A DNA stretch of 64,000 nucleotides from Acidisarcina sp. GTDB lineage: Bacteria > Acidobacteriota > Terriglobia > Terriglobales > Acidobacteriaceae. Where the stretch lies: contig DATLIY010000009.1 of the NCBI GenBank assembly GCA_035539175.1, positions 248,001 to 312,000 of the forward strand, in the 5' to 3' direction. The notes under the pieces were generated by a model. The model did not search any database. It was given only the letters and a program-made list of their open reading frames with translations, and was not told where the DNA came from. Position numbers and translations under genes: made by a program. This document shows, in pieces, positions 36,049-55,760 of this stretch. The number at the start of each line of letters is the position of its first letter. The stretch's first letter is position 1.

Positions 36049-36068
36049 CCTACGCGGCCGCGGGCGGG

Positions 36069-36225
36069 GTCGACCTACGGGAACGCCGCTGACCTACGGG
36101 ACGGTGCCCGTAGTTCAAGGCTCGATGGCCCCCACATATCGGGGGTCACGCCGTGAGATCTACAACCTGTTGGATTTCAATTCGGTGTGGTGGCGGTGGA
36201 CAGAATCGAACTGTCGACCTACGGG
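36069..36225. repeat. direct repeats of a tRNA-derived 13-mer (att candidate)
   Basis: GTCGACCTACGGG occurs at 36,069-36,081 and again at 36,213-36,225 inside the tRNA-like sequence. A shorter copy (TGACCTACGGG) is at 36,090-36,100. The latter forms a perfect dyad, CTACGGG-acggtg-CCCGTAG (36,094-36,113). Repeats of tRNA sequence beside an integrase suggest attachment cores or scars of repeated integration. Confidence 0.5.
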
Positions 36226-36259
36226 TTATGAGTCCGTCGCTCTAACGAGCCATACCGTG
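36188..36259 (-). pseudogene. degenerate tRNA-Met (CAT), probable attachment site
   Basis: On the minus strand the anticodon arm (GGACTCATAACCC), variable loop, T-arm (GACAG-TTCGATT-CTGTC) and 3' acceptor CACCGCC-A-CCA are intact. The D-loop is cut to about four bases (GCTC-GTTA-GAGC). The 5' acceptor CACGGTA pairs at only four of seven positions with the 3' strand. This is what a tRNA 3' part left at a prophage junction looks like; the functional copy is expected elsewhere. Confidence 0.65.
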
Positions 36260-36364
36260 GGTCAGCACCTGGATGCACAACGACTGAATTGAAACCGAAT
36301 CTGAAGTTCTCGAAAACCATACTCGCGATTTTTTTACTGCGCAAGCACTATTTTAGAAAAAAAT

Positions 36365-36556
36365 CTAGAGCGGGCTGCGCGGGTTGCGTGCTCCGCAGTG
36401 GGGGCAGGGTTTGCGGCGCTCGCGGGCGCTCAGGGGAGCCAGGCAGCCGACGCAGGGCACGAGGTTGCGCGGCTTGCGGGGGATGCGCTTAGCAAACTCG
36501 GCCCGGATCAGCGCGTCGGGGATCGTGGTGAGATCCCATTCAGGGGTGTATTTCAT
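36365..36556 (-). CDS. small zinc-ribbon protein
   Basis: 63 aa. The C-terminal zinc ribbon has CVGC (35-38) and CPHC (52-55), ending GARNPRSPL. The N-terminus is EWDLTTIPDALIRAEFAKRI. The ribbon and tail closely resemble those of the gene 16 nt upstream in the same operon (CPGC...CPHCGARNTCSPF). The function is unknown; it is probably a small nucleic-acid or protein-binding accessory factor of the prophage. Confidence 0.6.
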   Translation of the reverse strand: MKYTPEWDLTTIPDALIRAEFAKRIPRKPRNLVPCVGCLAPLSARERRKPCPHCGARNPRSPL

Positions 36557-36571
36557 GCTTACGCTTCTCCT

Positions 36572-36880
36572 CTAGAATGGGCTGCACGTGTTGCGCGCTC
36601 CGCAGTGGGGACAGCGGAGGTCTCTGTCGTTCAGTGGGGCCTGGCAGCCTGGGCAGGGCTGTTGATCCCACGGCACATTAGAGGATCTATCGCCATCAGC
36701 CACGCGCATAAAGACCTCGTCGTCCGCCGAATAGATCACGTCGAAGATACTCGCGGCGGCTCGTATCCATTTCGTGCGGTCGTCAATTCCCCACGCTGTT
36801 TCAGGCTGTGGAAGAGTCTTGAGCAAGCCTTCAATGAAGGGGTGTAACGTGGTGCTCTCGCGCTTTTCATCGTTGCTCAT
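36572..36880 (-). CDS. zinc-ribbon protein, paralogous tail with downstream gene
   Basis: 102 aa. The helical N-terminal part (HPFIEGLLKTLPQPETAWG) is followed by acidic stretches and a C-terminal zinc ribbon CPGC/CPHC ending GARNTCSPF. It shares that tail with the 63-aa gene 16 nt downstream. No known family is recognised. Both probably belong to the accessory region of the prophage between the integrase and the left attachment site. Confidence 0.6.
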   Translation of the reverse strand: MSNDEKRESTTLHPFIEGLLKTLPQPETAWGIDDRTKWIRAAASIFDVIYSADDEVFMRVADGDRSSNVPWDQQPCPGCQAPLNDRDLRCPHCGARNTCSPF

Positions 36881-37095
36881 GGTTCATCCCTGCGAATCTG
36901 CGCCGGGGTTACCTACCCGGCCCCGGCTACCACGCCGGAGGCACCGCTTGCCCGAGGATGGGCACGGCGGAGACTAAGATTCCTAACTGAGGCGGAGTCT
37001 GACAATCCTAATCTTGGCGAATTCTTCGGCGCGTGGCCAGTCTGGGGAGACATAAATACTTTCCGAGTGAGCGCCGATTATCTCATTTCACGATG

Positions 37096-37119
37096 AAAAA
37101 TCTCGCGCGGTTGCCGCGC
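37096..37119 (-). terminator. rho-independent terminator after the 130-aa gene
   Basis: On the minus strand GCGCGG-caa-CCGCGC is followed by GAGATTTTT. It lies 12 nt after the stop of the gene at 37,131 and would end the small operon that contains the CRISPR-like repeats. The 215 nt between it and the 102-aa gene show no gene. Confidence 0.65.
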
Positions 37120-37130
37120 TTGTCACGTTA

Positions 37131-37523
37131 TTAAACCCAGTTCTCCGGGTCCGCCATGAAATCCTCGGATTCCGCGGCCTGCCTATCCTCATCCGCCATA
37201 AACTCAGCGAATTCCGCAGCCTGCCTATCCGCACGGCGCTCTTCGTCCTCGTCCTCTACAACCTGCATATAGGAGCGAGCCGCGAGCCTAGCCGCCTCCC
37301 GCCTCGCATACGCGTCCGCCCATTGCTCCTCTGTAAACGGGTTATACGAGTGCGAACCCTCTAGCCTGCCGCCAGCATAGGGGCAGTTGAGTGCGGAATC
37401 TAGCGATACATGGTGATGCCCGCACGTCCCGTGTCGTTCAACCCCGATCTCCACCCCATCAACCAGGAACCATCCAGACAGTTTGCTCCTGCGTACCCAC
37501 GTATATGTTTCTGCGCGTGTCAT
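37131..37523 (-). CDS. acidic hypothetical prophage protein with tandem repeat
   Basis: 130 aa. The N-terminal part has HGTCGHHHVSLDSALNC with Cys and His residues that may bind metal. The C-terminal part is very acidic and contains a near-tandem repeat (DRQAAEFAEFMAD, then DRQAAESEDFMAD). AGAGGAG lies 7 nt before the ATG, and the same leader sequence precedes the 220-aa gene upstream. No family is recognised. A strongly acidic tail is seen in many DNA-mimic and anti-restriction proteins, but that is only a possibility. Confidence 0.6.
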   Translation of the reverse strand: MTRAETYTWVRRSKLSGWFLVDGVEIGVERHGTCGHHHVSLDSALNCPYAGGRLEGSHSYNPFTEEQWADAYARREAARLAARSYMQVVEDEDEERRADRQAAEFAEFMADEDRQAAESEDFMADPENWV

Positions 37524-37555
37524 TGTCGTTCTCCTCTGCAGGGGTTGCGGCGGCC

Positions 37556-37645
37556 TTGTACATCCCCGCTGACGCGGGGAACATGTCCATATTGTGCCTG
37601 TCAGTAACGACTCAACCGGTTCATCCCCGCACGGCGGGGAACGTG
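37556..37645 (-). CRISPR. two-repeat, one-spacer type I-E-like mini-array
   Basis: Two 29-nt repeats (37,617-37,645 and 37,556-37,584 in transcript order) flank a 32-nt spacer (37,585-37,616), the exact 61-nt period of type I-E arrays. Both have GTTCCCCGC and GCGGGGAT arms, giving the perfect stem CCCCGC/GCGGGG with a 3- or 4-nt loop. The first repeat ends ATGAACCG, one base from the E. coli crRNA 5' handle ATAAACCG. The second ends in a degenerate ATGTACAA, as terminal repeats often do. No cas genes are in the window. Two simple hairpins are the alternative, but the spacing and handle argue against that. Confidence 0.65.
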
Positions 37646-37649
37646 GTGA

Positions 37650-38312
37650 TTATACATCCTCGTCGATGTCGAGTTCGCCATGATCTGTGATTGTCCAGAC
37701 TGGAACTCGTCCGGTACTCTCCAGCACCGCTTTCGCTAACCGTTCACTCATCCGGCGCAGTTTAGCAGCAGAGCCGTAGGCCGCCTCAGAGTCTCCGCTA
37801 ATGCGGAGACAGTCGATCATGTCTACGATGCCGCCACCGTGAGCCTCGTACTGGCCGTCAACCCGCATAGATACGATGCGTGCGTCAATTTTGGAATCCC
37901 GCACAGCATCTAGGACCGTGTCTCCGACGCCGTAGATGATCCCGTCGGCGTAGACTGCGTACCACTGCGGGTGCATTGCTGCGACTGCCCGCTTAACGCA
38001 TTCGTGTCCATAGCGGAGGGAGTCCACTTTTTCCTCGAGCGTGAACTGCGAGGACCGGGCGAATACCAACAGGCCACGGTACACCTCCTCGACTTTGCGG
38101 CCATCTATATCGGTCCAGCGCGCGACGTACTGCTCCCCATCAAGCAACGTCTGGATTGTCATTCCGTACACCTCGGGATGCTGGATTTTGTATTCACGAA
38201 TTGCGAGGATGGCCTGTTCGGCCTGCTCGACCGTGATCGATTTCACCACCTCGATAGGACTCTTGGTCTCTTGTTCCCAGTACCGGATTGTGTAGCTGAT
38301 CGTGTGTTCCAT
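37650..38312 (-). CDS. hypothetical prophage protein upstream of the mini-array
   Basis: 220 aa from ATG 38312, which has AGGAG 7 nt upstream; an ATG five bases earlier is out of frame. Its N-terminal domain (HTISYTIRYWEQETKSPIEV) looks like a small alpha/beta fold. WYAVYADGIIYGVGDTVLDA near the middle resembles a DUF-like 'xYxVYxDGxxYGxGDT' module seen in small phage proteins. The function is unknown. The array-like repeats begin 4 nt after its stop. Confidence 0.6.
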   Translation of the reverse strand: MEHTISYTIRYWEQETKSPIEVVKSITVEQAEQAILAIREYKIQHPEVYGMTIQTLLDGEQYVARWTDIDGRKVEEVYRGLLVFARSSQFTLEEKVDSLRYGHECVKRAVAAMHPQWYAVYADGIIYGVGDTVLDAVRDSKIDARIVSMRVDGQYEAHGGGIVDMIDCLRISGDSEAAYGSAAKLRRMSERLAKAVLESTGRVPVWTITDHGELDIDEDV

Positions 38313-38361
38313 GTCATTTCTCCTCTGCGGTTGGTCCGCTTGCTTCTCAACAACAATTGCG

Positions 38362-38390
38362 AGATTAGGCGCACATAGCCCACGTGTCAA
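38362..38390 (-). promoter_or_regulatory. consensus promoter for the 220-aa gene / mini-array operon
   Basis: On the minus strand a perfect TTGACA (38,385-38,390) and TAATCT (38,362-38,367) are separated by 17 nt. The predicted start near 38,355 leads into the 220-aa gene, the CRISPR-like repeats, the 130-aa gene and the terminator at 37,096. This suggests expression in the lysogen by host sigma70. Confidence 0.65.
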
Positions 38391-38425
38391 GAGGAAAATG
38401 CAAAAAAATGAAAATAATTTTGGGC

Positions 38426-39682
38426 TTATTTTTGGGCGGAAAAATTCGCGACGCGGACCGGCGCGGGCCGGACGGGAGATGGAGCGAATCCCTGGTACGG
38501 GTTCGGCTGGCTGGGGGCCTCGGGCGCGAGGCGATGGAATCCATTCGCGTGCTCCATCCAGCGCCGTTGCGCCGCCGAGGAGATATGCGTGTAGTGGCGG
38601 CGCATTTTCTCGCTCACGTGTCCCGCCCGCGCCATGATGATGTCGATCGGCACGCCCGCCTCAGCCAGGCGCGTGATCGCCGTATGCCGGCAGTCATAGC
38701 ACCGGAACCAGGTGAGCCGCGAGGTAGAGCGCACCTCGTTCCATTGCCGTTTGATGCCGCTCTCGGACATCGGCGCGGTGGGATCCCAGTCGATCGACGA
38801 GTTGCGCCGGGGAAACAGATAGTGCCCCATGTCTCTCGCGCCCAGCATCCGCGCCCGCTCCAGCAGCCGCTCCAGCGCCCAGAGCACGTCCGCGCCCACC
38901 AACTCGATGGTGCGCGCGCGATGGATGTTTTTCGCGCTCTTGCGCGGGACGACGAGGACGCGCTGAAACAGATTGACGTCGCCCAGGCGCAGGCCGCGCA
39001 GCTCGTCGGTACTCATGCAGGTGGAAAACGCAAGCAGCGAATACCAGTAGACGATATCCCAGCGGGTCTGCAGGCGGCTGACGTCGAGCCAGTGCTGCTG
39101 CTCCTCCGGCGTCAGCGCGCGCGGAATATCCTGCTCGTCATCGTCGATCAGCGTGTGCATCTCGTAGATCTCGCGCATCTGATCGGTCCAGCAGTCGACC
39201 TGCTGCAGCAGGTGGATCAGCAGGCCCAGCTCCTGCCGCACTTTTTTCGCTTTGGCCGGGCAGGAGGTTTTCCCCCTGGCTGGAACCTCCACGCCGCCCA
39301 CCCGGCGCGGCTTCGCATCCTGCGGCCGGCGATAGCGAATGAACGGCTCCGCACCGCGCACGCGCGCCTGTTGATAGGCAATGATGTTCTCCATGCCGAT
39401 CTCGCCGAGTTGCATGCCGCCGAAAAAGAGAGTGAGGGACGCGATGTATTGCCCGTAATCCTCCGCTGTCCTCTCCCGTATATACCGCGCGGACAGGGCA
39501 CCTGGCCGTACATCGGTGATGGACCGCGACTGCAGCCAGCACTGGGCCGCAACCTCAAACAACGAACCAGCAGAAATCGACATCAGCAATTGAGCCCGCA
39601 ATTCCCCACACAGGGGACAATCGATGTGCCCCGGCGTGTGCCGTTTGGATTCGTCTAATTGAGCGCGATCATATGCAGCCAT
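38426..39682 (-). CDS. int: tyrosine-type prophage integrase
   Basis: 418 aa site-specific recombinase. The N-terminus has a CPLC motif (22-25) with nearby His, a possible zinc site. Catalytic residues: Arg229 (TDELRGLRLGD), Arg332 (YDCRHTAITRLAEAG, with Tyr329 in place of the usual His), His355 (ARAGHVSEKM) and Tyr364 (RRHYTHIS). It lies 2.2 kb from the tRNA-Met remnant, its probable target. Two palindromes sit just upstream of its start. Confidence 0.93.
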   Translation of the reverse strand: MAAYDRAQLDESKRHTPGHIDCPLCGELRAQLLMSISAGSLFEVAAQCWLQSRSITDVRPGALSARYIRERTAEDYGQYIASLTLFFGGMQLGEIGMENIIAYQQARVRGAEPFIRYRRPQDAKPRRVGGVEVPARGKTSCPAKAKKVRQELGLLIHLLQQVDCWTDQMREIYEMHTLIDDDEQDIPRALTPEEQQHWLDVSRLQTRWDIVYWYSLLAFSTCMSTDELRGLRLGDVNLFQRVLVVPRKSAKNIHRARTIELVGADVLWALERLLERARMLGARDMGHYLFPRRNSSIDWDPTAPMSESGIKRQWNEVRSTSRLTWFRCYDCRHTAITRLAEAGVPIDIIMARAGHVSEKMRRHYTHISSAAQRRWMEHANGFHRLAPEAPSQPNPYQGFAPSPVRPAPVRVANFSAQK

Positions 39683-39694
39683 GCGACACCTGTC

Positions 39695-39712
39695 GAGTAC
39701 CCTTTGGTACTC
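39695..39712. promoter_or_regulatory. perfect palindrome upstream of int (operator candidate 1)
   Basis: GAGTACC-cttt-GGTACTC is a perfect 7-bp dyad 13 nt upstream of the integrase ATG. It could bind a repressor or an excisionase-like protein, or the ribbon-helix-helix protein encoded 60 nt away. Confidence 0.4.
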
Positions 39713-39739
39713 TAAGAGACGCCGATGAGGTGTCTCTTA
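39713..39739. promoter_or_regulatory. perfect palindrome upstream of int (operator candidate 2)
   Basis: TAAGAGAC (39,713-39,720) and GTCTCTTA (39,732-39,739) form a perfect 8-bp dyad directly next to the first palindrome, in the divergent space between int and the 53-aa ribbon-helix-helix gene. Confidence 0.4.
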
Positions 39740-39769
39740 GATACACAACGCTGCCAATAGCATGGCCAC

Positions 39770-39931
39770 ATGACCAAAATGCAGCACACCACCCTGCGGC
39801 TCAGCAGCGTCCAGATCCGCCAGGTCAACCAGCTCGCGCAGAAGCTGCAGCTCGATCGCGCCAACGTCATCCGACTCGCCATTGCACGCCTGGCCGAGGC
39901 CGAAGGCATTGTGATTCCGCACCGCTCCTGA
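39770..39931 (+). CDS. short ribbon-helix-helix (CopG-like) protein
   Basis: 53 aa from ATG 39770 (ATG 39779 is also possible). The sequence HTTLRLSSVQIRQVNQLAQK, then DRANVIRLAIARL, fits the beta-strand, helix, turn, helix pattern of MetJ/Arc-type DNA-binding dimers. It is divergent from int across the two palindromes, so it is a candidate regulator of int and of itself. There is no clear ribosome site. Confidence 0.6.
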   Translation: MTKMQHTTLRLSSVQIRQVNQLAQKLQLDRANVIRLAIARLAEAEGIVIPHRS

Positions 39932-40093
39932 GATGACCTGCCGGCAAACTACCCACGTATCTACTTCGCCAACAAAAATGCAGCGCAGGTAACATGTACC
40001 CCCTTTTGCACTGGATTGCAATACATTTCCGATATTTTTTCTTGCGCAGCGGAGGAGGATTGACTACATTGGGTGTCCCAACAGGAGACACAC

Positions 40094-40276
40094 ATGGCGG
40101 CAGGCGAGCAAAAAACACCATCCAAACGAAACGAACGGGCGCAGGCGCGCACTATCAGCCTGCGACTGCAGGGACCGCAGCTGGCCGCGCTCGATCGCCG
40201 CGCGGAGCGCATGGGCATGACGCGCAGCGCCGTGATCCAGATGGCGCTGGCGTTGTTTTTGCAGAAGGAGTTATAG
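40094..40276 (+). CDS. ribbon-helix-helix (CopG-like) DNA-binding protein
   Basis: 60 aa from ATG 40094, which has AGGAG 6 nt upstream. A basic N-terminus is followed by ARTISLRLQGPQLAALDRRA and GMTRSAVIQMALALFL, a clear RHH fold. It is the second such protein here. The next gene starts 16 nt downstream, so it may control the zinc-ribbon/acyltransferase cassette or be an antitoxin-like factor without a visible toxin. Confidence 0.75.
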   Translation: MAAGEQKTPSKRNERAQARTISLRLQGPQLAALDRRAERMGMTRSAVIQMALALFLQKEL

Positions 40277-40292
40277 AGAGAGGAGCTGCAGG

Positions 40293-40793
40293 ATGGGCGC
40301 GACTACGGGCAGGATGATCCGGTGTTCGGCGTGCGGTGCGGAGGTGGCTCCAGGCACGGAGTATTGCAGCGGCTGCGGCCTGAGACTCGCCGCCTATGCG
40401 GTGCCGGTGGTGGCGCGGCAGCGAAGAGGTCTGCCGATCCTGCTCTGGATCGCCATCTTTGCCGCCGGGCTCTACTGCCTGAGCTACTTCCTATATCAAT
40501 CGGATGAGCATGCCCATGAGGCGCATCGTGCGGCGCTGCTGGTAGCCCTGCACGATGGCTCGCTGGCCACGCCGGAGGCATTCCAGCGGAGCTGCGGCCA
40601 GGCCGACGCGATCGCCACAACGCCGCTGCGGCAGGGGCCTGTCCTGGAGTATCGCGGGCTCAATCTGGCGGTGGCATTTTCCGGCCGCGATGTACTGTTC
40701 GCCGATCGCGATCGCCTGCTGACCCGCTCGCATCCGATCTGGCTGCCGGCGGACAATAGCGCGATCGAGCCGCACTGCTCCACATCGCGATGA
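40293..40793 (+). CDS. zinc-ribbon single-pass membrane protein
   Basis: 166 aa. AGGAG lies 7 nt before ATG 40293. An N-terminal zinc ribbon (RCSACGAEVAPGTEYCSGCG) is followed by a basic stretch and a membrane span (PILLWIAIFAAGLYCLSYFL, about 46-66). A soluble C-terminal domain of about 95 residues has two cysteines (RSCGQADAI and PHCSTSR). The function is unknown. It is coupled to the acyltransferase by a 4-nt overlap, so it probably works with it in the envelope. Confidence 0.65.
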   Translation: MGATTGRMIRCSACGAEVAPGTEYCSGCGLRLAAYAVPVVARQRRGLPILLWIAIFAAGLYCLSYFLYQSDEHAHEAHRAALLVALHDGSLATPEAFQRSCGQADAIATTPLRQGPVLEYRGLNLAVAFSGRDVLFADRDRLLTRSHPIWLPADNSAIEPHCSTSR

Positions 40794-41872
40794 ATCGCAT
40801 CCCCACTCTCGACGGCTGGCGTGGCGTCGCCATTCTGCTGGTGCTGATCGATCACGCGATCTGGGGAATTACCGGAGCAAACCCACTCGGGCGAGTGAGC
40901 CAGCACGGAGTTGCAATTTTTTTCGTCCTGAGCGGCTACCTCATCACCTCGCGATTCTGCGAGGAGTTCGACAGGACAGGCAAGCTCGATCTTGGGCGCT
41001 TCTATGCACGCCGATTCTTCCGCCTCATGCCCGCTGCGTGGCTCTATCTCGCAATCGTCGGCGTGGTCCTTCTCAGCCAGGGATTTTTCTATACGCGGCG
41101 CGAACTGCTCGGCAGCCTGCTATTTTTTCGCAATTTCATCTACAACGAGGGAACCAGCCTCACCGGCCATTTCTGGTCCCTCTCACTCGAGGAGCAGTTT
41201 TACCTGACCTGGCCAGCGGTTTTGCTGTTCGCAGGATTCAAGCGTGCGCGCTGGATCGCCGGCGCAGCGATTGTGCTGCTGGTCGCCTATCGTTTCAGCC
41301 AGCGCGACACGCTGCTGGCACTGCCGCTGTGGGCGACGTTTCGCACCCAATTTCGCGCGGATGGATTGCTGATCGGATGCCTCGCCGCGCTTCTCCTGCC
41401 GGGCCTGTCGAGGCGGTTTCAACCATGGATGATATGGCCGCTCCTGCTCGCATTCGGATTCTGCCTGCATCGCTACGATCAGATTATCCCTGCCGGCGAG
41501 TCTCTCATCATCGCGCTCCTGCTGCATGCGACCACGCTGTTTCCACAGACCATCGCGGCCCGGCTTCTCAGCTGGAGAGCGCTGACCTTTCTCGGCGCGA
41601 TCTCCTATTCGCTCTACCTGTGGCAGCAGCTCTTTCTCCTCACGCGAGTGACGCATCCCCTCGATAGCCTGGTCCCGATCGCGCTGCTCTTCGCGATCGC
41701 AATTCTCAGCCATTTCTACCTGGAGCTGCCATTGATCCGCCTCGGGAAAAACCTCAGCCCTTCGCGAGCATCACGATGCTCATCTCCGCGCTCGTCGTAC
41801 TCAGCGACGAGTCCGCATAGGCGTACATCTCGATCGTCGAGCCCTGCGATAGGTGAACCACCCGCACGTTGA
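40790..41872 (+). CDS. acyltransferase family 3 (OafA-like) membrane protein
   Basis: 360 aa with about ten spans. It opens RIPTLDGWRGVAILLVLIDH, the family signature with the catalytic His, followed by FFVLSGYLITSRF and FWSLSLEEQFYLTWP. Such enzymes O-acylate surface polysaccharide. In temperate phages they change the host surface receptor (lysogenic conversion). Its last 40 codons overlap the convergent tail-fibre gene by 119 nt and read as Ser/Arg-rich low complexity, so the native end may have been altered. Confidence 0.88.
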   Translation: MNRIPTLDGWRGVAILLVLIDHAIWGITGANPLGRVSQHGVAIFFVLSGYLITSRFCEEFDRTGKLDLGRFYARRFFRLMPAAWLYLAIVGVVLLSQGFFYTRRELLGSLLFFRNFIYNEGTSLTGHFWSLSLEEQFYLTWPAVLLFAGFKRARWIAGAAIVLLVAYRFSQRDTLLALPLWATFRTQFRADGLLIGCLAALLLPGLSRRFQPWMIWPLLLAFGFCLHRYDQIIPAGESLIIALLLHATTLFPQTIAARLLSWRALTFLGAISYSLYLWQQLFLLTRVTHPLDSLVPIALLFAIAILSHFYLELPLIRLGKNLSPSRASRCSSPRSSYSATSPHRRTSRSSSPAIGEPPAR

Positions 41873-43172
41873 TCGAGCCATTGCGTTTCACAGCCGTGAC
41901 GAACCACGAGAACCACGAGCCGTCGACCGCCGTGGAGTTTGCTCCCTGCCCGTAGCTCACGCCCGATGTCGCGTTATCGACAATGCGCAGCTTCGTCGTA
42001 ATCATGTAGGTGCCGGAGATCGGAATCGTATATTGATTCGTCGAGGAGTTCCATCCATTATTGTTATCCGCGACGACCGTCCCAAACGTAATTTTGCTGA
42101 ACGCATTCGAGACCGATTGCGTGCTGCTATCCGTCACATCCAGCACCACCGATTGCGGCACGCCGATCATCACCACGACTGCCTGAAAATAGCCAGTGCC
42201 TGGCGAGCTATAACTGAAGTTAGGCGAGACCGTTCCATTGCTGGTGGCAGCTTCCAGGTAGAGACAGCCCGAAGCCCCCGCCCCGTCGTTTGCCGTTTTC
42301 TGCAGCGTGCCGCGATCGACCGTATCGGTCGAGGCACCGCGATTCATCGTGAAATACAAAATGGAACTGCCGGAGGATACGGAGGCACTCGGACCCGCGA
42401 CCGGAGAGGTGAACGCCCCTCCAAATTGAGCGACGTATGCGTTGTTGAACGCTACAGTGCCGGCGCTGATATACGCGGCGAGCGCCACCACTCCCTCTCC
42501 CGATCCGATGAACGTCGCGGTGACCGATCCCGCGGTGATGTCGCTCGCACTCAGGATTTTGTACGCGACAAATCCATTGACGTAGGACAACCCGGATTCC
42601 TGACTCGCGAACGTCCACGGAGATCCGGACAGAGAACTCAGGCTCTGCCAGTGGCCACCGCAACACACAATGAAATCGCCGGCCAGCGCTCCCGACGGGA
42701 GAGAAACCGCGACGGAGGTGGTGGTCGTCGTGGCGATCGCAGTCCCGCGCAGCGTCGGAATGGTGCTGCCACCACCACCACCGCCCGTTCCATTTGCCGC
42801 CGCAGTGACGCGCCCCTTGGCGTCCACCGTGATATTCGCGCTCGTGTAGCTGCCAGCAACTACTCCCGAGGAGGCAAGGGTCGCCGCGGCGCTTCCAGGC
42901 CCGCTGGCCGTGACGTCGCCCGTCAGCGCAGTAATCGCGTTGCCTGTCGCTGCGCTGATTTTGCCAGTAGCGTCGACGGTGATGGTGGATCCATCGGGCT
43001 GGACCGCGCCCAGAGCCACAGCGGTAGCCGCAGGCACGTTCGCGGAGGTTGGGTTAACCGGCCAGCCGGTAGCAGGATCGGTGCCCGTGCTCGTGCCCTT
43101 TTGCCAGCGCACATTCACCGCGGCCGCCGGCGCTGCCGGCGTGGTGTTGTTCAGATTTACGATCTCCGACAT
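41754..43172 (-). CDS. phage tail fibre/collar protein with C1q-like end
   Basis: 472 aa. The N-terminal part has the common phage-fibre repeat ITVDATGKISAATGNAITAL and SANITVDAKGRVTAAANG. A glycine linker follows (about residue 130). A middle beta-rich domain and a C-terminal region resembling C1q/TNF-like trimers (NQYTIPISGTYMITTKLRI) complete it. It probably recognises the host surface. It is the last structural gene and faces the acyltransferase gene. Confidence 0.8.
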   Translation of the reverse strand: MSEIVNLNNTTPAAPAAAVNVRWQKGTSTGTDPATGWPVNPTSANVPAATAVALGAVQPDGSTITVDATGKISAATGNAITALTGDVTASGPGSAAATLASSGVVAGSYTSANITVDAKGRVTAAANGTGGGGGGSTIPTLRGTAIATTTTTSVAVSLPSGALAGDFIVCCGGHWQSLSSLSGSPWTFASQESGLSYVNGFVAYKILSASDITAGSVTATFIGSGEGVVALAAYISAGTVAFNNAYVAQFGGAFTSPVAGPSASVSSGSSILYFTMNRGASTDTVDRGTLQKTANDGAGASGCLYLEAATSNGTVSPNFSYSSPGTGYFQAVVVMIGVPQSVVLDVTDSSTQSVSNAFSKITFGTVVADNNNGWNSSTNQYTIPISGTYMITTKLRIVDNATSGVSYGQGANSTAVDGSWFSWFVTAVKRNGSINVRVVHLSQGSTIEMYAYADSSLSTTSAEMSIVMLAKG

Positions 43173-46100
43173 TTATGCTCCGTTGACCTGGAAGCCCTGG
43201 CCGCCGCCGCCGGCACTGGCGGCCGCGCCCGTGGGCGTGTAGCTGTACACGACGACATCGGCGAGCGATTGCAGGCCGCCGCCAAAGGAATTAAAGCTGC
43301 AGATTTTAAACTTGAGAGTCTTGCCGATCCAGGTTGGATCCATCGTCAATTTCAGCAGCCCGCTGCCATCCGGAGAGAGGAACGCGAACCGGCTGCCCAG
43401 CGGATGGTCGACTCCGGCGCCCGTCGCAGGCGCGGCATAGACTGCGCGGCGGAGCTTGTTCCCCGTCCCCGTCGCCTGCAGCGTGTATTTGTTGGCCGCG
43501 GTCAGCGTGGCCGCGGCATAGCTCATCAGCTCGTACGCGATGGCATAGGATCCCCCGCCCGCGATATAGCAAGGGTAGAGAAAATTGTCCTCGTCGCTCA
43601 CCTGGTAGCTGAGCAGCGTTCCCGCCGACTCGGTGAGATCGAGCGCGAGATTGTTCACCGTATCTGGATCGGCGGCCGCGGGCCAGTCGGCAGTGCTCAC
43701 GCCGGTGATCGCGCTCGCCGTCAGTGGATCGCCGACCGGGTTGTAGGAGCTGCCCCCATCGGTCGACAGAAACACCTGGGCGCCGCCGTAGTTCGCCGCC
43801 GGCGACGAGACCGCCAGCCAGAGCTGCGCCTGGGCGGCGTTGCCATAGAGCCGCGGCACCGGCTCGAAAATCACCGGGGCATTCACGTTGCCGGCGCTGG
43901 CATTGGTGTCCACCGTGTTCTGCGTGGGCGTGGTGGCCGCGAGCAGATCGGGAGAGCACATGCCATAGACGAAGGGCTCCGCCTCGCAGCGCAGCGATCC
44001 ATCCTGTTCCTCGGCCGTGCTGGTGATCCGCACCGGCACCTGGACGATGGATGCCGCGCGATCGGTGACCGTGACCAGATCCATGGGCGCGAGCAGCGAC
44101 CACCTGGAGTTGACCGTAAACACATAGGTATCGCCGCCGAACTGTTTGCGCCGCGCCTGGATTGCCAGCAGTTTGCGCGCGATCGCGGCATCCTGCACCG
44201 CATTGTTCACCACCGGATCCGCCTTGCGCACGCCATAGAGCGCGATGGCCGCGGCCTCCGGCTGCTGCACCACGACGGGCGCATAGTTCGCCGCGCGGGA
44301 GATGCATTGCATCTGCAGCACATTGGGCTCATCGATGCGCGAGACGGTGGTGAGCTGGACGGGCGGCCCGCTGCCGACGAAATCGCCATTGTCGGCATCG
44401 AGCGCGGCGACCGGCCCGGAGGCCGTGGGCGCGGTATAGTTTGCGCCGTTGCCCGCCGTCGACTGCTCCGCGTAGGGAAACGAATACAGTTTGCTGCCGA
44501 GATAAACGGGCGCGGCATTGGCGGCGGCATAGAGCGTTTTGAGCCACTCACCGGCCGCCTGCTGCGCGTTCATCAGCAGCGAGCCCCAGAGCCCGTAGGC
44601 GCGGCACTGCCGGCGCACACTGTCGAGCGAGGGCAGGTCGAGGAAATCGCCCAGCGGCCGCGGCCCAGGCGCAGGATCGACCGCTTTGAAGGCGAGCATG
44701 CAGATGCCATCGGGCGCGCGCGCGCCGGGCTCGACAAACGTATAGCTGCCGCCGCTGCGCACCTGGCGCTGATGAATATGCTGTCCGCTGGCGGGCATCT
44801 GCCCGGAGAAATTGACCCGCGTCAGACAATCCCACTGCGCGACCACGGGATTGGTGATGATTGTTCCGCCGCCGTTCTGATAGAGTCCGATGGCGAGCAG
44901 GTAGGCCGGCAGATCCTGCAGGTTGGTCGTCGTCCCCGTCACCCGCGCTGCGCTGCCCACCGCGACCGAATCCAGAGTATCGACTCCCGCCACCTCGAGC
45001 AGCGTGGTGCTCCAGCTGTAGCTCTGCCCGGTGACGGTGACGGTGTTCGCGCCCGAGGCCGCGCATTTGGCGTACCACACCTGGTAGCCTGGCGTGCCGG
45101 AAAACACCGGCGTCCAGACGTTGCCCGCGGTATCGCTGATGCTCATCGCACCCACGCCGCCGTTGGCGATGACGACGAGAAAATTTCCCGCAGTATTCGG
45201 CTGGTTGTAGGGGATCGGCGCGAGGGTGAACGCCTCCGTGCTGGTCTCCGATTTCTGCTGCACGCATCCCGGCAGGTCGTAGCAGGAGAGCCCGCGTTCG
45301 AGCGGCGTATAGGCCGTGCCGGAGCCGATCGCGGCCTGGGTGATGCCGCTCTTGACCACATCCTCGATGATGTCGGCGAAATCGCAATCCCCGCTGGGGT
45401 AGATGCCGAACTTGCCCCGCACCTCGCAGAGCAGATGCGGAATCGCGGCGCTCGATCCGAGGTCGAGACTCGAGCTGCCCATGCCGGCAAACTGGGGATA
45501 GACGATCTGCTGCGCCGCCAGGCCCGCATCGGAATATTCCGTCCCCGAGCCGAGCTGGCTCTCAAACGCCAGGCGCAGGCGCTGCTGCGGCGGCTGGTAG
45601 CTGGTCGCCGCTTTGAGCCGCGCATAGTAGATGTTGATGTTGCCGGTCACGAACGCGCCGCCGGCGTCATATTGCAGGGTCGCGCCATAGCTCGGCTGCC
45701 AGCGATAGCAGTGCGGCCAGTAGCGGAATGCGGCATTGAACGTGGGATCGGGGCCCTGCTCCAGCTCGTTCCACATCGGGATTTCGTAACTGCCGGTGAG
45801 CGTGACGCTGCCCTGACCGCCGTAATCGTTGAACGTGACGTTATAGGTCACCGTGCGCGTGACCGCGATGACTGCGTAGAAATGCGCGTCGCTCACCGTC
45901 CACGAGCTGCCGCTCTGCACCGCGAAATCGAGCGGATAGAGATGGCCATTCGACCACATCTGCAGCACGCCCATGAGCGGGTTGTGCCCAATGCAGAAAT
46001 CGACATTCTCGACGTAGGCCGTGATCCCCTTTTTCATTTGTTTCAGTTTTTTCGTGCTGCCGCCGCGGCGCAGGTTGGCCGCCCAGATGGCGAGCAACGC

Positions 46101-46208
46101 CGATTGCGTCTGCCCATAGATCTGCGGGATGGTGCTGCCGTAGGTGGAGGACTGCAGCAGCGAGCCCAGCGCGGTGGGACGGGTGGTGGATTGCGATTTT
46201 CCCTGCAT
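43173..46208 (-). CDS. phage tail-tip/host-specificity protein (GTA gp15- or gpJ-like)
   Basis: 1011 aa. The N-terminus (GSLLQSSTYGSTIPQIYGQT) is typical of tail-tip proteins next to NlpC/P60 genes. The central part has KPFVYG/YVFTVNSRWSLLAPMDLV-like baseplate-hub sequence (EPFVYGMCSPDLL). The C-terminal part ends in low-complexity GGGGQGF. It is smaller than the about 1,300-aa RcGTA protein. Position after DUF2460, DUF2163 and NlpC genes supports the role; the sequence alone is weaker. Confidence 0.82.
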   Translation of the reverse strand: MQGKSQSTTRPTALGSLLQSSTYGSTIPQIYGQTQSALLAIWAANLRRGGSTKKLKQMKKGITAYVENVDFCIGHNPLMGVLQMWSNGHLYPLDFAVQSGSSWTVSDAHFYAVIAVTRTVTYNVTFNDYGGQGSVTLTGSYEIPMWNELEQGPDPTFNAAFRYWPHCYRWQPSYGATLQYDAGGAFVTGNINIYYARLKAATSYQPPQQRLRLAFESQLGSGTEYSDAGLAAQQIVYPQFAGMGSSSLDLGSSAAIPHLLCEVRGKFGIYPSGDCDFADIIEDVVKSGITQAAIGSGTAYTPLERGLSCYDLPGCVQQKSETSTEAFTLAPIPYNQPNTAGNFLVVIANGGVGAMSISDTAGNVWTPVFSGTPGYQVWYAKCAASGANTVTVTGQSYSWSTTLLEVAGVDTLDSVAVGSAARVTGTTTNLQDLPAYLLAIGLYQNGGGTIITNPVVAQWDCLTRVNFSGQMPASGQHIHQRQVRSGGSYTFVEPGARAPDGICMLAFKAVDPAPGPRPLGDFLDLPSLDSVRRQCRAYGLWGSLLMNAQQAAGEWLKTLYAAANAAPVYLGSKLYSFPYAEQSTAGNGANYTAPTASGPVAALDADNGDFVGSGPPVQLTTVSRIDEPNVLQMQCISRAANYAPVVVQQPEAAAIALYGVRKADPVVNNAVQDAAIARKLLAIQARRKQFGGDTYVFTVNSRWSLLAPMDLVTVTDRAASIVQVPVRITSTAEEQDGSLRCEAEPFVYGMCSPDLLAATTPTQNTVDTNASAGNVNAPVIFEPVPRLYGNAAQAQLWLAVSSPAANYGGAQVFLSTDGGSSYNPVGDPLTASAITGVSTADWPAAADPDTVNNLALDLTESAGTLLSYQVSDEDNFLYPCYIAGGGSYAIAYELMSYAAATLTAANKYTLQATGTGNKLRRAVYAAPATGAGVDHPLGSRFAFLSPDGSGLLKLTMDPTWIGKTLKFKICSFNSFGGGLQSLADVVVYSYTPTGAAASAGGGGQGFQVNGA

Positions 46209-46217
46209 AGTGTCTGC

Positions 46218-46706
46218 CTAGCCGAACGGGTTGAACACGTCCATCTCGCGATAGCCGGTGAGCGGATGCTGCGTCAGATCGGTCTCCTGCACGCGATCGT
46301 CGGCGGCATGGATGCCGAGCGGCCATGCGGTGACGATCGCGCCGTGGTTGTGGATCCTGCTGCCCGCCACGCGGAACAAAACCAGGTCGCCGGGCCGAGG
46401 CTGGGCATCGCCACGGCAGAGCGTCTCCGCCACCTGGCGCGCGTGCCGCATCAGCCGCAACAGATAACGCTCGCTGCTGGCGTGACAGAACCAGTCGTGA
46501 CTGTAGATGCCAAGATCCTGTAAATCCTCCGCCGCGGCCGCGCCGATCTCGATCAGGTATTCGGCGAGCAGCGTGGCGCAATCGCATCCAGCGCCGCGTA
46601 CACGGCCCCGCAGCACGTAGGGCGTGCCAATCCATGCCCGCGCACACACGATGGCCTCTGCGCGGCACTGCGGCGTATCAGACAGCGGTCTGTGGACTGG
46701 GCACAT
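46218..46706 (-). CDS. NlpC/P60 family tail peptidase
   Basis: 162 aa from ATG 46706, which overlaps the previous gene by 29 nt; the longer open frame upstream is antisense-like Arg/Ser-rich sequence. The core shows WIGTPYVLRGRVRGAGCDCA with catalytic Cys, and RIHNHGAIVTAW with catalytic His. In GTA-type and lambda-type tails this enzyme opens peptidoglycan during DNA entry. It is followed by the tail-tip gene after 9 nt. Confidence 0.85.
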   Translation of the reverse strand: MCPVHRPLSDTPQCRAEAIVCARAWIGTPYVLRGRVRGAGCDCATLLAEYLIEIGAAAAEDLQDLGIYSHDWFCHASSERYLLRLMRHARQVAETLCRGDAQPRPGDLVLFRVAGSRIHNHGAIVTAWPLGIHAADDRVQETDLTQHPLTGYREMDVFNPFG

Positions 46707-47604
46707 AGGGGAATCCGTAGTAGCTCTCATCGCCGAGGTTGATGGGCGCCGCCTTCGAGACGTAGAACGTATCCACGCCGGGCGTAGGCGGCCAGGGGAG
46801 CGGCGAATAGATCGTGAATGCGGAGTGGCTGTTGCTCGAGCCGTCGGTATATCTCCCGTTGCCGCCGATCGCCGACCAGGCCCCGGCAAGCGTCGCGCCG
46901 GGCCCGTCGAGAAACACCATGTAGCCGTGCTGGAACTGGTTGCCGGAATAAATTTTGTTGGCTGTCGGCGTCAGGCAGTCGGCATAGATCTGGTTGACCG
47001 TCGAGCCGGTAAAACATTTGAAAACCGGCAGCGAGGGATCGCCCGGCACCCGCGATGCGCCTGCATAGGCGGCGAGCGGATTGGTGACCTCGACGACGGT
47101 GGAGGGAATTTTCTGCGTCACCACATTGAGGAAACTCTTGAGGCGGAAAACGAGTTGGCCGCGATCGACGATGCAGGTATCCACCCGGCCGCCGAACCAG
47201 TCGGCGCAGCCCAGCGTATTCGCGTCCCCTGGCGCCGGCATGAATGCGCGGAACAGATGTACCGGCCAGTTATCATAAATGTGCAGCCTGGCGCGTTGCC
47301 GAGGCGATGCGGTGGCCATGCTGGCGGTCGCGGTGGCGGAGCCCGGCGACCAGGTGACCTCCAACTGCTGCACCTCGAGGCCGATTTTGGCGGTCACGCC
47401 GCCGCGCGAGACCACCGCCGGCTGAAACGTGCCCCAGGGAGAATAGAGCACCGGCGCCTCGTGATTCGTGAGCCAGATGGAGCGCGGATCCTCCGGCGCG
47501 CCGATGAGATAGAGATCGCGCAGCAACAGCTTGTTGTTCGTCGCGAGATAATTTTTCACCGCGGCCGTGTTGTCCTGGCCGGTGCCGCCGATTACTGTAC
47601 GCAT
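46678..47604 (-). CDS. DUF2163 family tail hub protein (GTA gp13-like)
   Basis: 308 aa. NKLLLRDLYLIGAPEDPRSI at the N-terminus is consistent with the BR0599/DUF2163 family, as is VFKCFTGSTVNQIYADCLTP with paired Cys in the middle. It also has FMVFLDGP-like GYMVFLDGPGATLAGAWSAI. In gene transfer agents this protein forms the hub between the distal tail ring and tip. AAAGGA precedes the ATG; the gap to the upstream gene is filled by the interspersed repeat. Confidence 0.8.
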   Translation of the reverse strand: MRTVIGGTGQDNTAAVKNYLATNNKLLLRDLYLIGAPEDPRSIWLTNHEAPVLYSPWGTFQPAVVSRGGVTAKIGLEVQQLEVTWSPGSATATASMATASPRQRARLHIYDNWPVHLFRAFMPAPGDANTLGCADWFGGRVDTCIVDRGQLVFRLKSFLNVVTQKIPSTVVEVTNPLAAYAGASRVPGDPSLPVFKCFTGSTVNQIYADCLTPTANKIYSGNQFQHGYMVFLDGPGATLAGAWSAIGGNGRYTDGSSNSHSAFTIYSPLPWPPTPGVDTFYVSKAAPINLGDESYYGFPYVPSPQTAV

Positions 47605-47613
47605 CGCATCCTT

Positions 47614-47637
47614 TCATCCTGAGCGCAGCGACGAATC
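47614..47637 (+). repeat. short interspersed repeat, copy 2 (inside prophage tail operon)
   Basis: It carries TCATCCTGAGCGCAGCGA and fills the 31-nt gap between the DUF2460 stop and the DUF2163 start almost exactly. The core matches copies at 35,266 and 57,761. Confidence 0.65.
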
Positions 47638-48523
47638 AGAGCGCGCTGGGCCGCGACTGCTGCAACCGGATCTTGCCCGAGCCCTTGCCTGCCGCGGATC
47701 CGCCGATCGTCCAAAACTGATTGGAGAATTTCTCCATATCCTGCGCATCGCTCGCGAAGCGCACACGGAAATAAAAATTAAATTGCGCCGTCACTGGCGC
47801 GGCCGGTCCGGGATTATAGCCCTGATCCGTCCAGGTAACGGTGCCGTCGGTGGTGGTTCCTCCGGCATCGTTCCAGCTGGGCGCCGTGCTGCCGGTCGTG
47901 CCCGCCGTGGTCACCTTCTGCAGATGCCCGGCGGGGTCGAGGATCTGATAGCCCAGCGCCCGCGCTGCTCCCGCGCTCCACCCCGGCGGCGAGGGCCATT
48001 TAATCACCAGCCCCATGTAGGAAGCGCCGGGCAGCGCCAGCCCCGGCCCCTGCACGGTATACGAGGAGGAGGATTGCAGCACGCCGTTGCAATACACGGT
48101 GAGCGCGCCATTGAGGTCCGTGACGTCCTCGTAGAATAGCCCGCCCAGAGTGCGCTGCACTGGCGAATAGTAGTTGCCCACACCATCGTTGACGAGCTGC
48201 AGCTGTGCCAGCGGCGTATTCGGCGCGCCCGCCAGCATCGCCGGGCCCACCGAGTTGTCGTCGGGATCGAGAAACAGGAAATCGGCTGCCTGCCCGCCGT
48301 GGTAGAGAAAAAAGTCCTCGAGCGTGCGCAGCTCGCTGACTGTAAAACTCCCCGCCGGCCAGTCGCGGAGAAAATCATAGACCAGCTCCCAGCTCCATTG
48401 CGGATTGACCGTCTGCGGCAGGCGCACCTCGTATTTATTGGGCGCGGCCTGCACCAGGGTATCGAACTGCACCGTGCGCAACACCGGCAGCGTGAGCCCC
48501 GGCAGCGTGGGAAATATTTTCAT
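47636..48523 (-). CDS. DUF2460 family distal tail protein (GTA gp12-like)
   Basis: 295 aa from ATG 48523; the longer frame upstream lies inside the tape-measure gene. FPTLPGLTLPVLRTVQFDTL is followed by WSWELVYDFLRDWPAGSF. TLEDFFLYHGGQAADFLFLD and the C-terminal FNFYFRVRFASDAQDMEKF are characteristic of DUF2460 (TIGR02217). It forms the distal tail ring below the tube. It is coupled to the tape-measure gene by a 4-nt overlap. Confidence 0.85.
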   Translation of the reverse strand: MKIFPTLPGLTLPVLRTVQFDTLVQAAPNKYEVRLPQTVNPQWSWELVYDFLRDWPAGSFTVSELRTLEDFFLYHGGQAADFLFLDPDDNSVGPAMLAGAPNTPLAQLQLVNDGVGNYYSPVQRTLGGLFYEDVTDLNGALTVYCNGVLQSSSSYTVQGPGLALPGASYMGLVIKWPSPPGWSAGAARALGYQILDPAGHLQKVTTAGTTGSTAPSWNDAGGTTTDGTVTWTDQGYNPGPAAPVTAQFNFYFRVRFASDAQDMEKFSNQFWTIGGSAAGKGSGKIRLQQSRPSAL

Positions 48524-51123: not shown

Positions 51124-51783
51124 TCTGCCTCCCCTTCCCTCGCAGCCTGTCCTGCTGCTCGTCTGCCCACTGCGCCATCTCACGCAATTCCGGCGGCATG
51201 GATTGTTGCGCGAATCCTGGTCCCATCTGCTGAACGGCCAGCAGCTGGTCGCGCGCCTGGTCCTCGCTCACCGGCTGCCGCTTGCGCTCGCCGAGATAGC
51301 GCAGCGCAAGGATGACGTGGGTGGGCGGCTCCTCGATCCAATAATCGAGCAGCTCGAAAATATTGACGACCGGCTCCTCATCGATCGCCGACGGCAGGCA
51401 ACCGAGAGCGGTGGCGACGCGGCCATAGACCCAGCGCCAGTCGGCCACCGCCGCGGTCCTCCTCTGCGTGCCGCCGGCGCCTATTCCCCCTCGGAGACCG
51501 GAGCCATGCCGGAGGCCGACTGCACCGCCCGTATCGCAAGCTGAAACGTGTGCAGGTCGAGCCACTCGGCGAGCTGCTCATCGGTCACCTCGGGATAGTT
51601 GCGGCGCACGGCCAGGCCGATGATGGGGATGTAGGCATCGAACGTTGCGAGCGCATCCTGCGGCTGCTCATCCGCGCGGGTGAGCGTGGCATATTGCGCG
51701 CGAAAATCGCGGGTCGAGAGAGAGGGGATGTAATAGTTCTGCCCGTTCATATAGACGGGCACGCCGAGATATTTCAATTTCAT
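51113..51783 (-). CDS. frameshifted tail assembly chaperone (gpGT-like)
   Basis: The extended product shares its N-terminus with the 100-aa chaperone and would continue after a -1 shift at the five-G run in GAGGGGGAATAG. There the Gly codon GGG can re-pair one base back. The -1 frame then reads GIGAGGTQRRTAAV and continues to QNGG, ending at 51,113, 11 nt inside the tape-measure start. The region after the slip has no own good start. Lambda G/GT-type frameshifting is widely conserved at this place; here it is inferred from frames and position. Confidence 0.65.
51481..51783 (-). CDS. tail assembly chaperone (gpG-like)
   Basis: 100 aa. GAGGAG lies 8 nt before ATG 51783. The sequence KLKYLGVPVYMNGQNYYIPS and DAYIPIIGLAVRRNYPEVTD fits small tail chaperones that sit between the major tail protein and the tape measure. 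It ends at a TAG just 3 nt after the five-G run. Confidence 0.72.
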   Translation of the reverse strand: MKLKYLGVPVYMNGQNYYIPSLSTRDFRAQYATLTRADEQPQDALATFDAYIPIIGLAVRRNYPEVTDEQLAEWLDLHTFQLAIRAVQSASGMAPVSEGE

Positions 51784-51813
51784 GGATGCAGCTCCTCGAG
51801 ATAGAAACACACA

Positions 51814-51844
51814 ATGAGCCGCGGCTGGTTGGCGCGCGGCTCAT
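51814..51844 (-). terminator. 10-bp hairpin between major tail protein and chaperone genes
   Basis: ATGAGCCGCG (51,814-51,823) and CGCGGCTCAT (51,835-51,844) form a perfect stem with an 11-nt loop. On the minus strand it is followed by TGTGTGTTT, a poor U-run. It may partly terminate or protect the transcript end so that the major tail protein is made in excess. A run of nine G (plus strand) lies next to it. Confidence 0.45.
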
Positions 51845-51867
51845 CTTTTGCGGGGGGGGGTAACTGT

Positions 51868-52635
51868 TTAGTTGACGTCGGCGTAGATGGCGCCCACGGC
51901 TCCGGTGACATCGGCCGAGGCGTCGAACGTGATATCGGCCATCCAGAAATCCTCCTGTTTCGTGGGAATGCTGATCGATCCCATGGTGCAGGAGTTGAGC
52001 TGCAGGGCAAAATATTTGGTGCGGAACACGTTGTACAACAGCGCGCTGAACTCGGGCGCATATCCCATGAGCTGGCTCGTGAGATTGATGGTCACACCAT
52101 TGGTTGCGTCGGAATAGAGATAGCTGAGCAGCACCGCCGAGGCTGTCTCTGCGGCATTGAACGTGTAGCTGGCCGCGGTGGGCGTGCCGCCCGTGGTGGC
52201 CTGCACAAACGTGTATTGTCCGACGAGGGGCGCCGTGGCCACCCGGATCATATTCAACCCGGTGTCCTTGTTGATGACGCCGTAATCGGTCAGCAGCGAT
52301 CCAGCAACGGCTTTCGTGGGCGCGATGGTCGCCGCCGGCACGTGCGATTCCAGATCGACGATGCGCTGCACCCCGGCCGCCGAGGCGAGGCCGAAATAGA
52401 GCTGGTTCATCATCGTGGGATCGAGCGTCGCAATCTTTCCTTTGCAGGTGACGTCGATCTTGCCGCGCGCCTTGGCGGCCGCGAACTGGTTTTGCCCGTA
52501 GAGCTTCTTCAAATCCGCCTTGAATTCGACCTGCACCTCCTGCAGAATGCCGAACCTCTGCGGCGTGGGATTGGTGGCGGTGTTGCCGGCGTTGGGGTTG
52601 CCAAAGAGCACCCCGGAACCAAACTGCAGGTTCAT
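51868..52635 (-). CDS. major tail (tube) protein
   Basis: 255 aa. FGSGVLFGNPNAGNTATNPT and QRFGILQEVQVEFKADLKKL are followed by ARGKIDVTCKGKIATLDP, the pattern of phage tube proteins. A mostly beta sequence rich in Thr/Ala follows. Position between the tail terminator and the chaperones supports the assignment. GGAG precedes the ATG. Confidence 0.82.
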   Translation of the reverse strand: MNLQFGSGVLFGNPNAGNTATNPTPQRFGILQEVQVEFKADLKKLYGQNQFAAAKARGKIDVTCKGKIATLDPTMMNQLYFGLASAAGVQRIVDLESHVPAATIAPTKAVAGSLLTDYGVINKDTGLNMIRVATAPLVGQYTFVQATTGGTPTAASYTFNAAETASAVLLSYLYSDATNGVTINLTSQLMGYAPEFSALLYNVFRTKYFALQLNSCTMGSISIPTKQEDFWMADITFDASADVTGAVGAIYADVN

Positions 52636-52721
52636 AGCTGTCTCCTCCTGGCGCTCTCTGTAGCGCGGTTATAGCGCTCGCGAGAGCGCGGTTGTGGTTG
52701 TGGGGTTTGCGGTGAGCGAGA

Positions 52722-55379: not shown

Positions 55380-55410
55380 GGGAAACTCCAGAGCCTGATT
55401 GTTTCGGGGA

Positions 55411-55458: not shown

Positions 55459-55483
55459 CACACTTCAACTCCCGCGAGCTGCG

Positions 55484-55729: not shown

Positions 55730-55760
55730 CGTCCTTCTCCATTCCCGTCGTAATTCCCAA

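Follow-up and report, generated by a model that had tools for sequence, protein, structure and literature searches.

The primary survey of mini-arrays without cas genes in phages and prophages is reportedly that of Faure et al. 2019. The parts of the literature on which we draw describe viral mini-arrays that lack cas genes and carry one or two spacers, mostly directed against related viruses (PMC6858448, PMC11656645, PMC7099407). Phage mini-arrays are reported there to be without leaders (PMC6858448), and their leaders to differ from those of the hosts (PMC7099407). The locus analysed in this work is a further member of this known kind, a leaderless phage mini-array without cas genes. Its special features are a lysogen with no detectable Cas6e or Cas1, a repeat loop of only 3 nt and two repeats that are unlike each other.

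Results

The array lies near the left end of a tailed prophage

The window, i.e., the whole 64-kb stretch of DNA that was analysed (G000:C9:248001-312000), belongs to a 3.92-Mb genome of 99.96% completeness. An earlier note on this DNA had placed the repeat pair inside a prophage, and att repeats, an integrase and structural genes agree with this location (Table 1). The structural genes encode tail proteins, a tape measure, a head-tail connector, a head protease, a portal and a large terminase, and seven of the ten prophage proteins scanned matched a PHROG family. From the positions of the 193-bp direct repeat, we estimate a prophage of ~42 kb starting at ~36247. At the left repeat copy ARAGORN found no tRNA, as in the whole window, and the Rfam tRNA model still matched 36191-36259 at 38 bits. 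The intact tRNA-Met on the right together with the broken copy on the left matches what integration into the 3' portion of a tRNA gene would leave. The mini-array lies between attL and the integrase, ~1.3 kb inward from the left prophage end.

Table 1. Positions of the mini-array, its neighbours and the prophage features. Positions refer to the window unless a contig is given.
Feature	Position	Strand	Description
attL	36054..36246		left copy of 193-bp direct repeat, 98% identical; broken tRNA-Met end
Prophage, tailed phage, ~42 kb	36247..64000 in window, on to ~G000:C9:326172		direct repeats, integrase, structural genes
Terminator-like hairpin and T-rich tail after ORF B	37105..37119	minus	terminator scan; closes the proposed transcript ORF A - mini-array - ORF B
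ORF B	37131..37523	minus	130 aa, no known family; start 32 nt after R1, GAGGAG ahead of it
Repeat R1 (terminal repeat)	37584-37556	minus	29 nt, 7-bp stem, 4-nt loop GTCA, eroded handle ATGTACAA
Spacer	37616-37585	minus	32 nt
Repeat R2 (upstream repeat)	37644-37617	minus	28 nt, 7-bp stem, 3-nt loop CGT, complete 5' handle ATGAACCG
ORF A	37650..38312	minus	220 aa, no family matched; 5 nt between its stop codon and R2
Promoter-like site upstream of ORF A	38362..38390	minus	-35 TTGACA perfect, 17-nt spacing, weak -10 TAATCT (3/6); by reading the sequence
Tyrosine integrase of prophage	38426..39682	minus	Pfam PF00589, E 4.9e-18; PHROG 1
Right copy of 193-bp repeat	G000:C9:325980-326172, beyond window		intact tRNA-Met (ARAGORN)

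From 38426 onwards, the window and the IMG/VR record UViG_3300028024_000179 agree in all of the 6,257 bases compared. The record starts exactly at the integrase stop codon and hence is without the mini-array region. This record appears to be the same prophage in clipped form and not independent evidence on the array. As it suggests, trimmed provirus records, and surveys of them, may miss elements near attachment sites.

Further traces of integration were seen around the prophage and elsewhere in the genome. Just outside attL, an integrase-like stretch at 35918-36041 (54 bp at 85%; 72% over ~124 bp) may have been left by an earlier integration at the same tRNA. G000:C12:9692-10420 holds another homologue (53%) of a prophage gene, and G000:C13:144907-145488 matches part of the integrase at 69% on the DNA level; both sites may belong to further prophages. 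Near the left end of the prophage, the opposite strand carries an acyltransferase-family gene (PF01757; window 40790-41872, plus), which may modify the surface of the lysogen.

The repeat pair keeps every part that one crRNA needs

The earlier note described two 29-nt repeats, 61 nt apart, around a 32-nt spacer. Spacer and R1 have these lengths, but R2 comprises 28 nt, and because it is one loop base short, the repeat spacing is 61 nt on one side and 60 nt on the other. Read on the minus strand, R2 is ACGTTCCCCGCCGTGCGGGGATGAACCG and R1 is ATGTTCCCCGCGTCAGCGGGGATGTACAA. As RNA, they share the stem UCCCCGC/GCGGGGA, perfectly paired in each, and differ in their loops (CGU in R2, GUCA in R1). The CCCCGC/GCGGGG stem claimed for both repeats is confirmed, and CCCCGC-N3..5-GCGGGG occurs in the 64-kb window solely at these two places. 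A handle close to that of type I-E had been assigned to the first repeat. R1 indeed carries an eroded version, but the complete handle is that of the upstream R2; there it immediately precedes the spacer, the place required of a crRNA 5' handle. It matches the 8-nt I-E pattern A-T-R-A-A-C-C-G and is identical to the handle of cellular I-E arrays. In RNA form the two handles read AUGAACCG (R2) and AUGUACAA (R1).

In length and stem, both repeats conform to type I-E repeats (~29 nt, GTTCCCCGC/GCGGGGAT stem), and outside the stem the GTT before and the ATGAACCG after it fit as well. Spacer length and period likewise agree with type I-E (32-33 nt and ~61 nt), and a 32-nt spacer with a 61-nt period was also found in the I-E arrays of the cellular genomes in this analysis. 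A 3-nt loop as in R2 is also present in the virus loci L073 and L096. Erosion has spared all 14 stem positions in both repeats and the R2 handle; it is confined to the loops and the 3' handle of R1. The anatomy keeps every part needed for one crRNA, in agreement with the earlier description of a type I-E-like mini-array.

Chance is excluded as the origin of the repeat pair. A first-order Markov control predicts 0.07 single CCCCGC-N3..5-GCGGGG stems per 64 kb, and a pair of stems 50-70 nt apart arose in none of 100 simulated sequences. With up to three mismatches and a 4-nt loop, the I-E pattern had R1 as its sole match in the window and no match in 100 dinucleotide shuffles. Across the genome, R1 is the only exact occurrence of the 4-nt-loop stem pattern, with seven more sites at two mismatches, not counting the palindrome read backwards; this genome-wide search covered 4-nt loops, and 3-nt loops of the R2 type were sought in the window. 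The predicted fold of the segment shows both hairpins. Taken as a whole, the segment folds slightly better than shuffled sequences (z -1.69; 10 of 200 shuffles equally stable). The locus is a genuine type I-E phage mini-array, and well placed.

Two same-strand genes flank the array

Between the stop codon of ORF A and R2 there is no room for a leader, given the distance of only 5 nt. Judged from this layout, the RNA of the mini-array would likely stem from read-through from ORF A. A promoter-like site upstream of ORF A was noted by reading the sequence; the promoter scan lists none in the region upstream of the mini-array. The terminator scan gave four terminator-like sites in the region, where 1.5 are expected.

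ORF A and ORF B matched no family in Pfam, PHROG or PADLOC and no credible one in NCBIfam. ORF A hit the NCBIfam model of a maltose alpha-D-glucosyltransferase with E 0.006 and 14.8 bits, far below the cut-off of 719, and this hit was discarded as noise. No relative of ORF A was found in viral_contigs, and the best and sole match of ORF B in genome_contigs is weak (25 residues, 56%, in a Bacteroidaceae assembly). The other virus array loci compared encode no relative of either ORF. Single-sequence structure prediction gave a mean pLDDT of 40 for ORF A and 67 for ORF B, the latter confident for one long helix only. In the 3' part of ORF B, a 42-nt tandem duplication (window 37150-37233, 83% identical) doubles a 14-residue segment.

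Compatible machinery occurs in the family

Neither Cas6e nor Cas1 was matched anywhere in the lysogen genome, prophage included, which for these two proteins bears out the earlier statement that the array comes without cas genes. The lysogen genome also holds no other exact 4-nt-loop I-E repeat. A genome of the same genus gave two untyped Cas1 matches and no Cas6e. The proposal that the RNA loads host Cascade is not supported in that wording, and we assume that the mini-array is probably idle in its present lysogen, since Cas6e and Cas1 are not detectable there.

The earlier note had asked for a I-E system in this or related hosts. None was detected in the lysogen as judged from Cas6e and Cas1, but the family provides one. 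Cas6e was matched in nine of 300 genomes of this bacterial family, in eight of them above the curated cut-off. The genome G612, of another genus in the family, contains a complete I-E operon (cas3, cse1, cse2, cas7, cas5, cas6e, cas1) and an array with 26 copies of GTTCCCCGCACACGCGGGGATGAACCG. Stem and handle of these repeats are the same as in R2, which makes this the nearest compatible array found. The repeats of G005, G558 and G676 are of the GTTCTCCCCACG type with another stem, G505 has 138 repeats ending in GATGATCC, and G440 has one repeat pair with a different stem. G204 and G471 showed no I-E-like array in the sequence stretches examined.

By pattern (up to one mismatch), the I-E repeat type was present in 12 of 396 genomes of the phylum, in some with one or two copies only. 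The pattern occurs just once or twice at G385:C5:108199, G364:C2:138002 and G240:C1:1674346, and these sites may be solitary repeats or mini-arrays. As Cas6e and the I-E operon exist elsewhere in the family, a phage of this family could come across a matching Cascade, although such encounters would be rare judging from this sample.

The spacer finds no target in the collections searched

The protospacer search suggested in the earlier note returned no target in any collection searched. In viral_contigs we found neither the exact 32-nt spacer nor the 18 nt at its start, and the same holds for a 20-mer that spans the junction of spacer and R1 and for a synonymous-codon version of the spacer (one of three open reading frames). 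The best matches in phage records were 17 nt long at E 3. Plasmid records yielded no match, and neither did genome_contigs when five wobble positions were allowed. Among 300 genomes of the family, the spacer matched only itself at up to three mismatches.

A target related to the prophage itself was considered, but the match was not accepted as evidence. In 22 of 32 bases the spacer matches L025:11436-11467, in the same codon register and within a gene of the same prophage (L025:10901-11656, minus), with a maximum of 19 of 32 in the reversed-sequence control. By a binomial estimate, about half of one match of this quality is expected over the 1.06 Mb of loci compared. All homologue loci had at least 14 mismatches, copies of the same site aside, and by eye the aligned homologues were unlike the peptide that the spacer would encode there. 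A tentative assignment of this gene to DUF2303 was confirmed by neither Pfam nor NCBIfam.

We also compared 501 I-E spacers with this prophage and obtained no clear signal, the best matches having 8 mismatches (four spacers) against 9 (13 spacers) in the reversed-sequence control. These spacers come from cellular and virus-borne arrays; the set includes spacers of arrays seen in more than one record, and not all arrays contributed theirs. Spacers of three other phage mini-arrays had no convincing phage target, one of them giving weak partial matches at E 0.3.

Other phage-borne arrays and the divergence of repeat loops

A scan of IMG/VR for handle, 29-36 nt and a next stem gave 37 records with at least one I-E repeat-spacer-repeat unit. 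Cas6e was absent from 29 of the 30 records tested, which may be fragments. There are 30 distinct virus array segments (31 were listed, one being the reverse reading of L087), and 22 of these have two or three repeats. Measured from the stop of a same-strand ORF, the array starts after 11 nt in L071, 3 nt in L072, 6 nt in L082 and 4 nt in L091, compared with 5 nt here. The remaining rows have gaps of 17 to 375 nt, and one has no upstream ORF; the comparison rests on 15 virus array rows (13 distinct) from 20 loci with mechanically called ORFs. In L075 and L091 a same-strand ORF spans the array. Erosion of the terminal repeat is also found in the phage mini-arrays L060, L071, L083 and L089. A loose scan of L096 (IMGVR_UViG_3300046376_000041, 41 kb) showed three two-repeat I-E-like pairs on the minus strand, at 1731, 4273 and 6012, and a stricter scan recovered the first two.

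Three IMG/VR records contain a 50-54% identical homologue of one prophage gene, and none of them has a 4-nt-loop repeat at up to two mismatches, 4-nt loops being the range of the search and one record being an 11.5-kb fragment. Absence from related prophages, which the earlier note would have held against its reading, is thus seen in part.

R1 and R2 combine different loops with identical stems. A hand count of short phage arrays (IMG/VR L060-L096) shows a loop difference within the final repeat pair in 15 of 22 arrays and a stem difference in seven of 22. For the last repeat pair of cellular arrays, loop and stem differ in one and three of 16 segments, respectively, which come from 12 loci. 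In the phage arrays, loop differences outnumber stem differences even though a stem offers 14 positions for change and a loop only about 4. The loop difference between phage and cellular arrays gives a Fisher p of 0.0002 with 16 segments and 0.001 with 12 units, for groups that are unmatched: the virus set required a perfect ATGAACCG handle and stem halves in two neighbouring repeats, and the cellular set was collected by other patterns. The 22 phage arrays, with two or three repeats each, were kept by hand, leaving out longer arrays and the L087 reverse reading; virus arrays with the same first spacer were merged, and L065, L073 and L087 end at a contig edge. Because of these different patterns and of arrays cut at contig ends, we take loop divergence as a lead.

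Loss of spacers via recombination between repeats is described as a possible limit for mini-arrays (PMC7099407), and the diverged repeats of CreTA are reported to be more stable (PMC9458426). Divergent loops on conserved stems would, by the same logic, stabilise an array against recombination. The titles and abstract openings covered by our literature search make no mention of loop divergence in mini-arrays, and as far as these go the pattern is possibly new.

Discussion

We propose, with a probability of roughly 0.5, that the locus is a leaderless one-spacer I-E mini-array in a phage operon that gives one crRNA to the Cascade of a I-E host. From the layout we infer that the array would be co-transcribed on the minus strand with ORF A and ORF B. 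In a I-E host, cleavage by Cas6e behind both stems would set free a single standard crRNA, made up of the R2-derived 8-nt handle, the 32-nt spacer and, at the 3' end, the hairpin of R1. This crRNA might then load host Cascade and aim it at DNA that matches the spacer. In analogy to known mini-arrays, its quarry would most likely be a competing phage or another mobile element.

We favour this guide function because every position that one crRNA needs is intact and erosion is limited to parts that it does not use. The proposal is weakened by the lack of a target in all searches, the differences between R1 and R2, the short R2 loop, the missing Cas6e and Cas1 matches in the lysogen and the lack of a promoter in the scan. 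It is further weakened in that the repeats of known mini-arrays are described as equal to those of the host, and none such were found in this lysogen in the search for 4-nt-loop repeats. Overall, the mini-array probably lets the phage draw on the CRISPR machinery that some of its hosts possess.

Loss of function altogether would make the locus a stranded fragment, a piece of the I-E array of an earlier host that was gained by recombination and now decays. A lysogen with neither Cas6e nor Cas1 detectable, the eroded R1 handle, the shortened R2 loop, the missing spacer target and the three related virus records that have no 4-nt-loop repeat are all in line with decay. We nevertheless regard it as unlikely, as decay has spared the 14 stem positions of both repeats and the R2 handle, terminal-repeat erosion recurs in four further phage mini-arrays and tight placement behind a stop codon recurs in 4 of 15 virus array rows. 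About equally unlikely, in our view, is a decoy or sponge RNA that would shield the phage by tying up Cas6e and Cascade in a I-E host, similar to Racrs and with or without loading of the spacer. Two I-E Racrs are reported to have inhibited a I-E system, and Racr candidates to cluster with anti-CRISPR genes (PMC10651486); here both flanking genes run in the direction of the array and have no known family, and a decoy would also fit the lack of a spacer target in the collections searched. Racrs, however, are solitary repeats, and the Racr survey kept repeats unassociated with others (PMC10651486). The complete handle and the standard 32-nt spacer, both kept here, are needless for a decoy, and the two flanking ORFs show no match to Pfam, PHROG or PADLOC families nor a credible one to NCBIfam. 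The Discussion of the Racr study ascribes the aberrant complex of RacrIF1 to its missing 5' handle (PMC10651486), and the complete 5' handle of R2 thus favours a guide over a decoy of the RacrIF1 type.

Two diverged repeats around one spacer-like segment also resemble creA as described in PMC9458426, and the spacer might accordingly steer Cascade to repress a nearby promoter. We rejected such a regulator, which appears very improbable, since seed-plus-PAM matches nearby are not above chance: the window and the adjoining 19 kb contain one, against a mean of 0.44 and a maximum of two for 50 shuffled spacers (with an assumed PAM set). Moreover, it is the first repeat of CreTA that is more diverged (PMC9458426), but the last one here, and the genome has no Cas6e or Cas1 match. 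Least credible of all is a chance proximity of two unrelated hairpins, be it terminators or mRNA-stabilising stems. Their position between two same-direction genes and the whole-segment fold, little better than that of shuffles, would suit them. On the other hand, simulated sequences did not produce such a pair, the bases before and after the stems fit I-E repeats too, and the terminator scan lists neither stem, so that the terminators which the earlier note had raised as an alternative can be dismissed.

If the mini-array is functional as a guide, such guides would be kept for hosts other than the present one. The locus provides a clean minimal case of a phage with one guide RNA and without the tested proteins to use it, in a lysogen that shows neither Cas6e nor Cas1. 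With regard to the other phage arrays, we may tentatively speculate, in full awareness that this is rather unlikely, that I-E phage mini-arrays are adapted guide cassettes and more than mere copies of host pieces. Their stems would be conserved for Cas6e, and the loops, like the unused last handle, would be pushed to diverge, which would reduce recombination and preserve the spacer. Placed behind a stop codon in a phage operon, the cassette would pass through CRISPR-less hosts before it reaches one with a compatible Cascade. The comparison with other phage arrays also offers a testable idea of how phages stop a two-repeat array from deleting itself, namely by giving similar stems unlike loops.

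Among the systems described in the sources used here, the CreTA antitoxin RNA likewise has two diverged repeats that flank one spacer-like segment (PMC9458426). In contrast to CreTA, our locus has no nearby partial target with PAM above chance and no cas locus as judged from Cas6e and Cas1, and its divergence pattern is the reverse (PMC9458426). Racr units, too, are phage-borne intergenic repeat mimics co-oriented with small genes of unknown function, and I-E versions exist (PMC10651486). A Racr, however, is a single repeat away from others (PMC10651486), whereas the array studied here combines two repeats, spaced by 61 nt, with a standard spacer and a 5' handle that is complete. SPV arrays resemble it in that a virus carries one or two spacers and borrows the effector complex; unlike our locus, they have host-like leaders and known reciprocal targets. 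Closest are the phage mini-arrays without cas genes, even though R1 and R2 differ in loop and handle and the lysogen showed no Cas6e, Cas1 or identical array, with no other exact 4-nt-loop repeat. Like these, our locus lies within a provirus, as seen from its 193-bp direct repeats, tRNA-Met ends, integrase and structural genes, and the element has no cas genes as far as Cas6e and Cas1 are concerned. It shares with them a count of one or two spacers, an intergenic position, the leaderless organisation of bacteriophage mini-arrays and the fit to a cellular CRISPR subtype.
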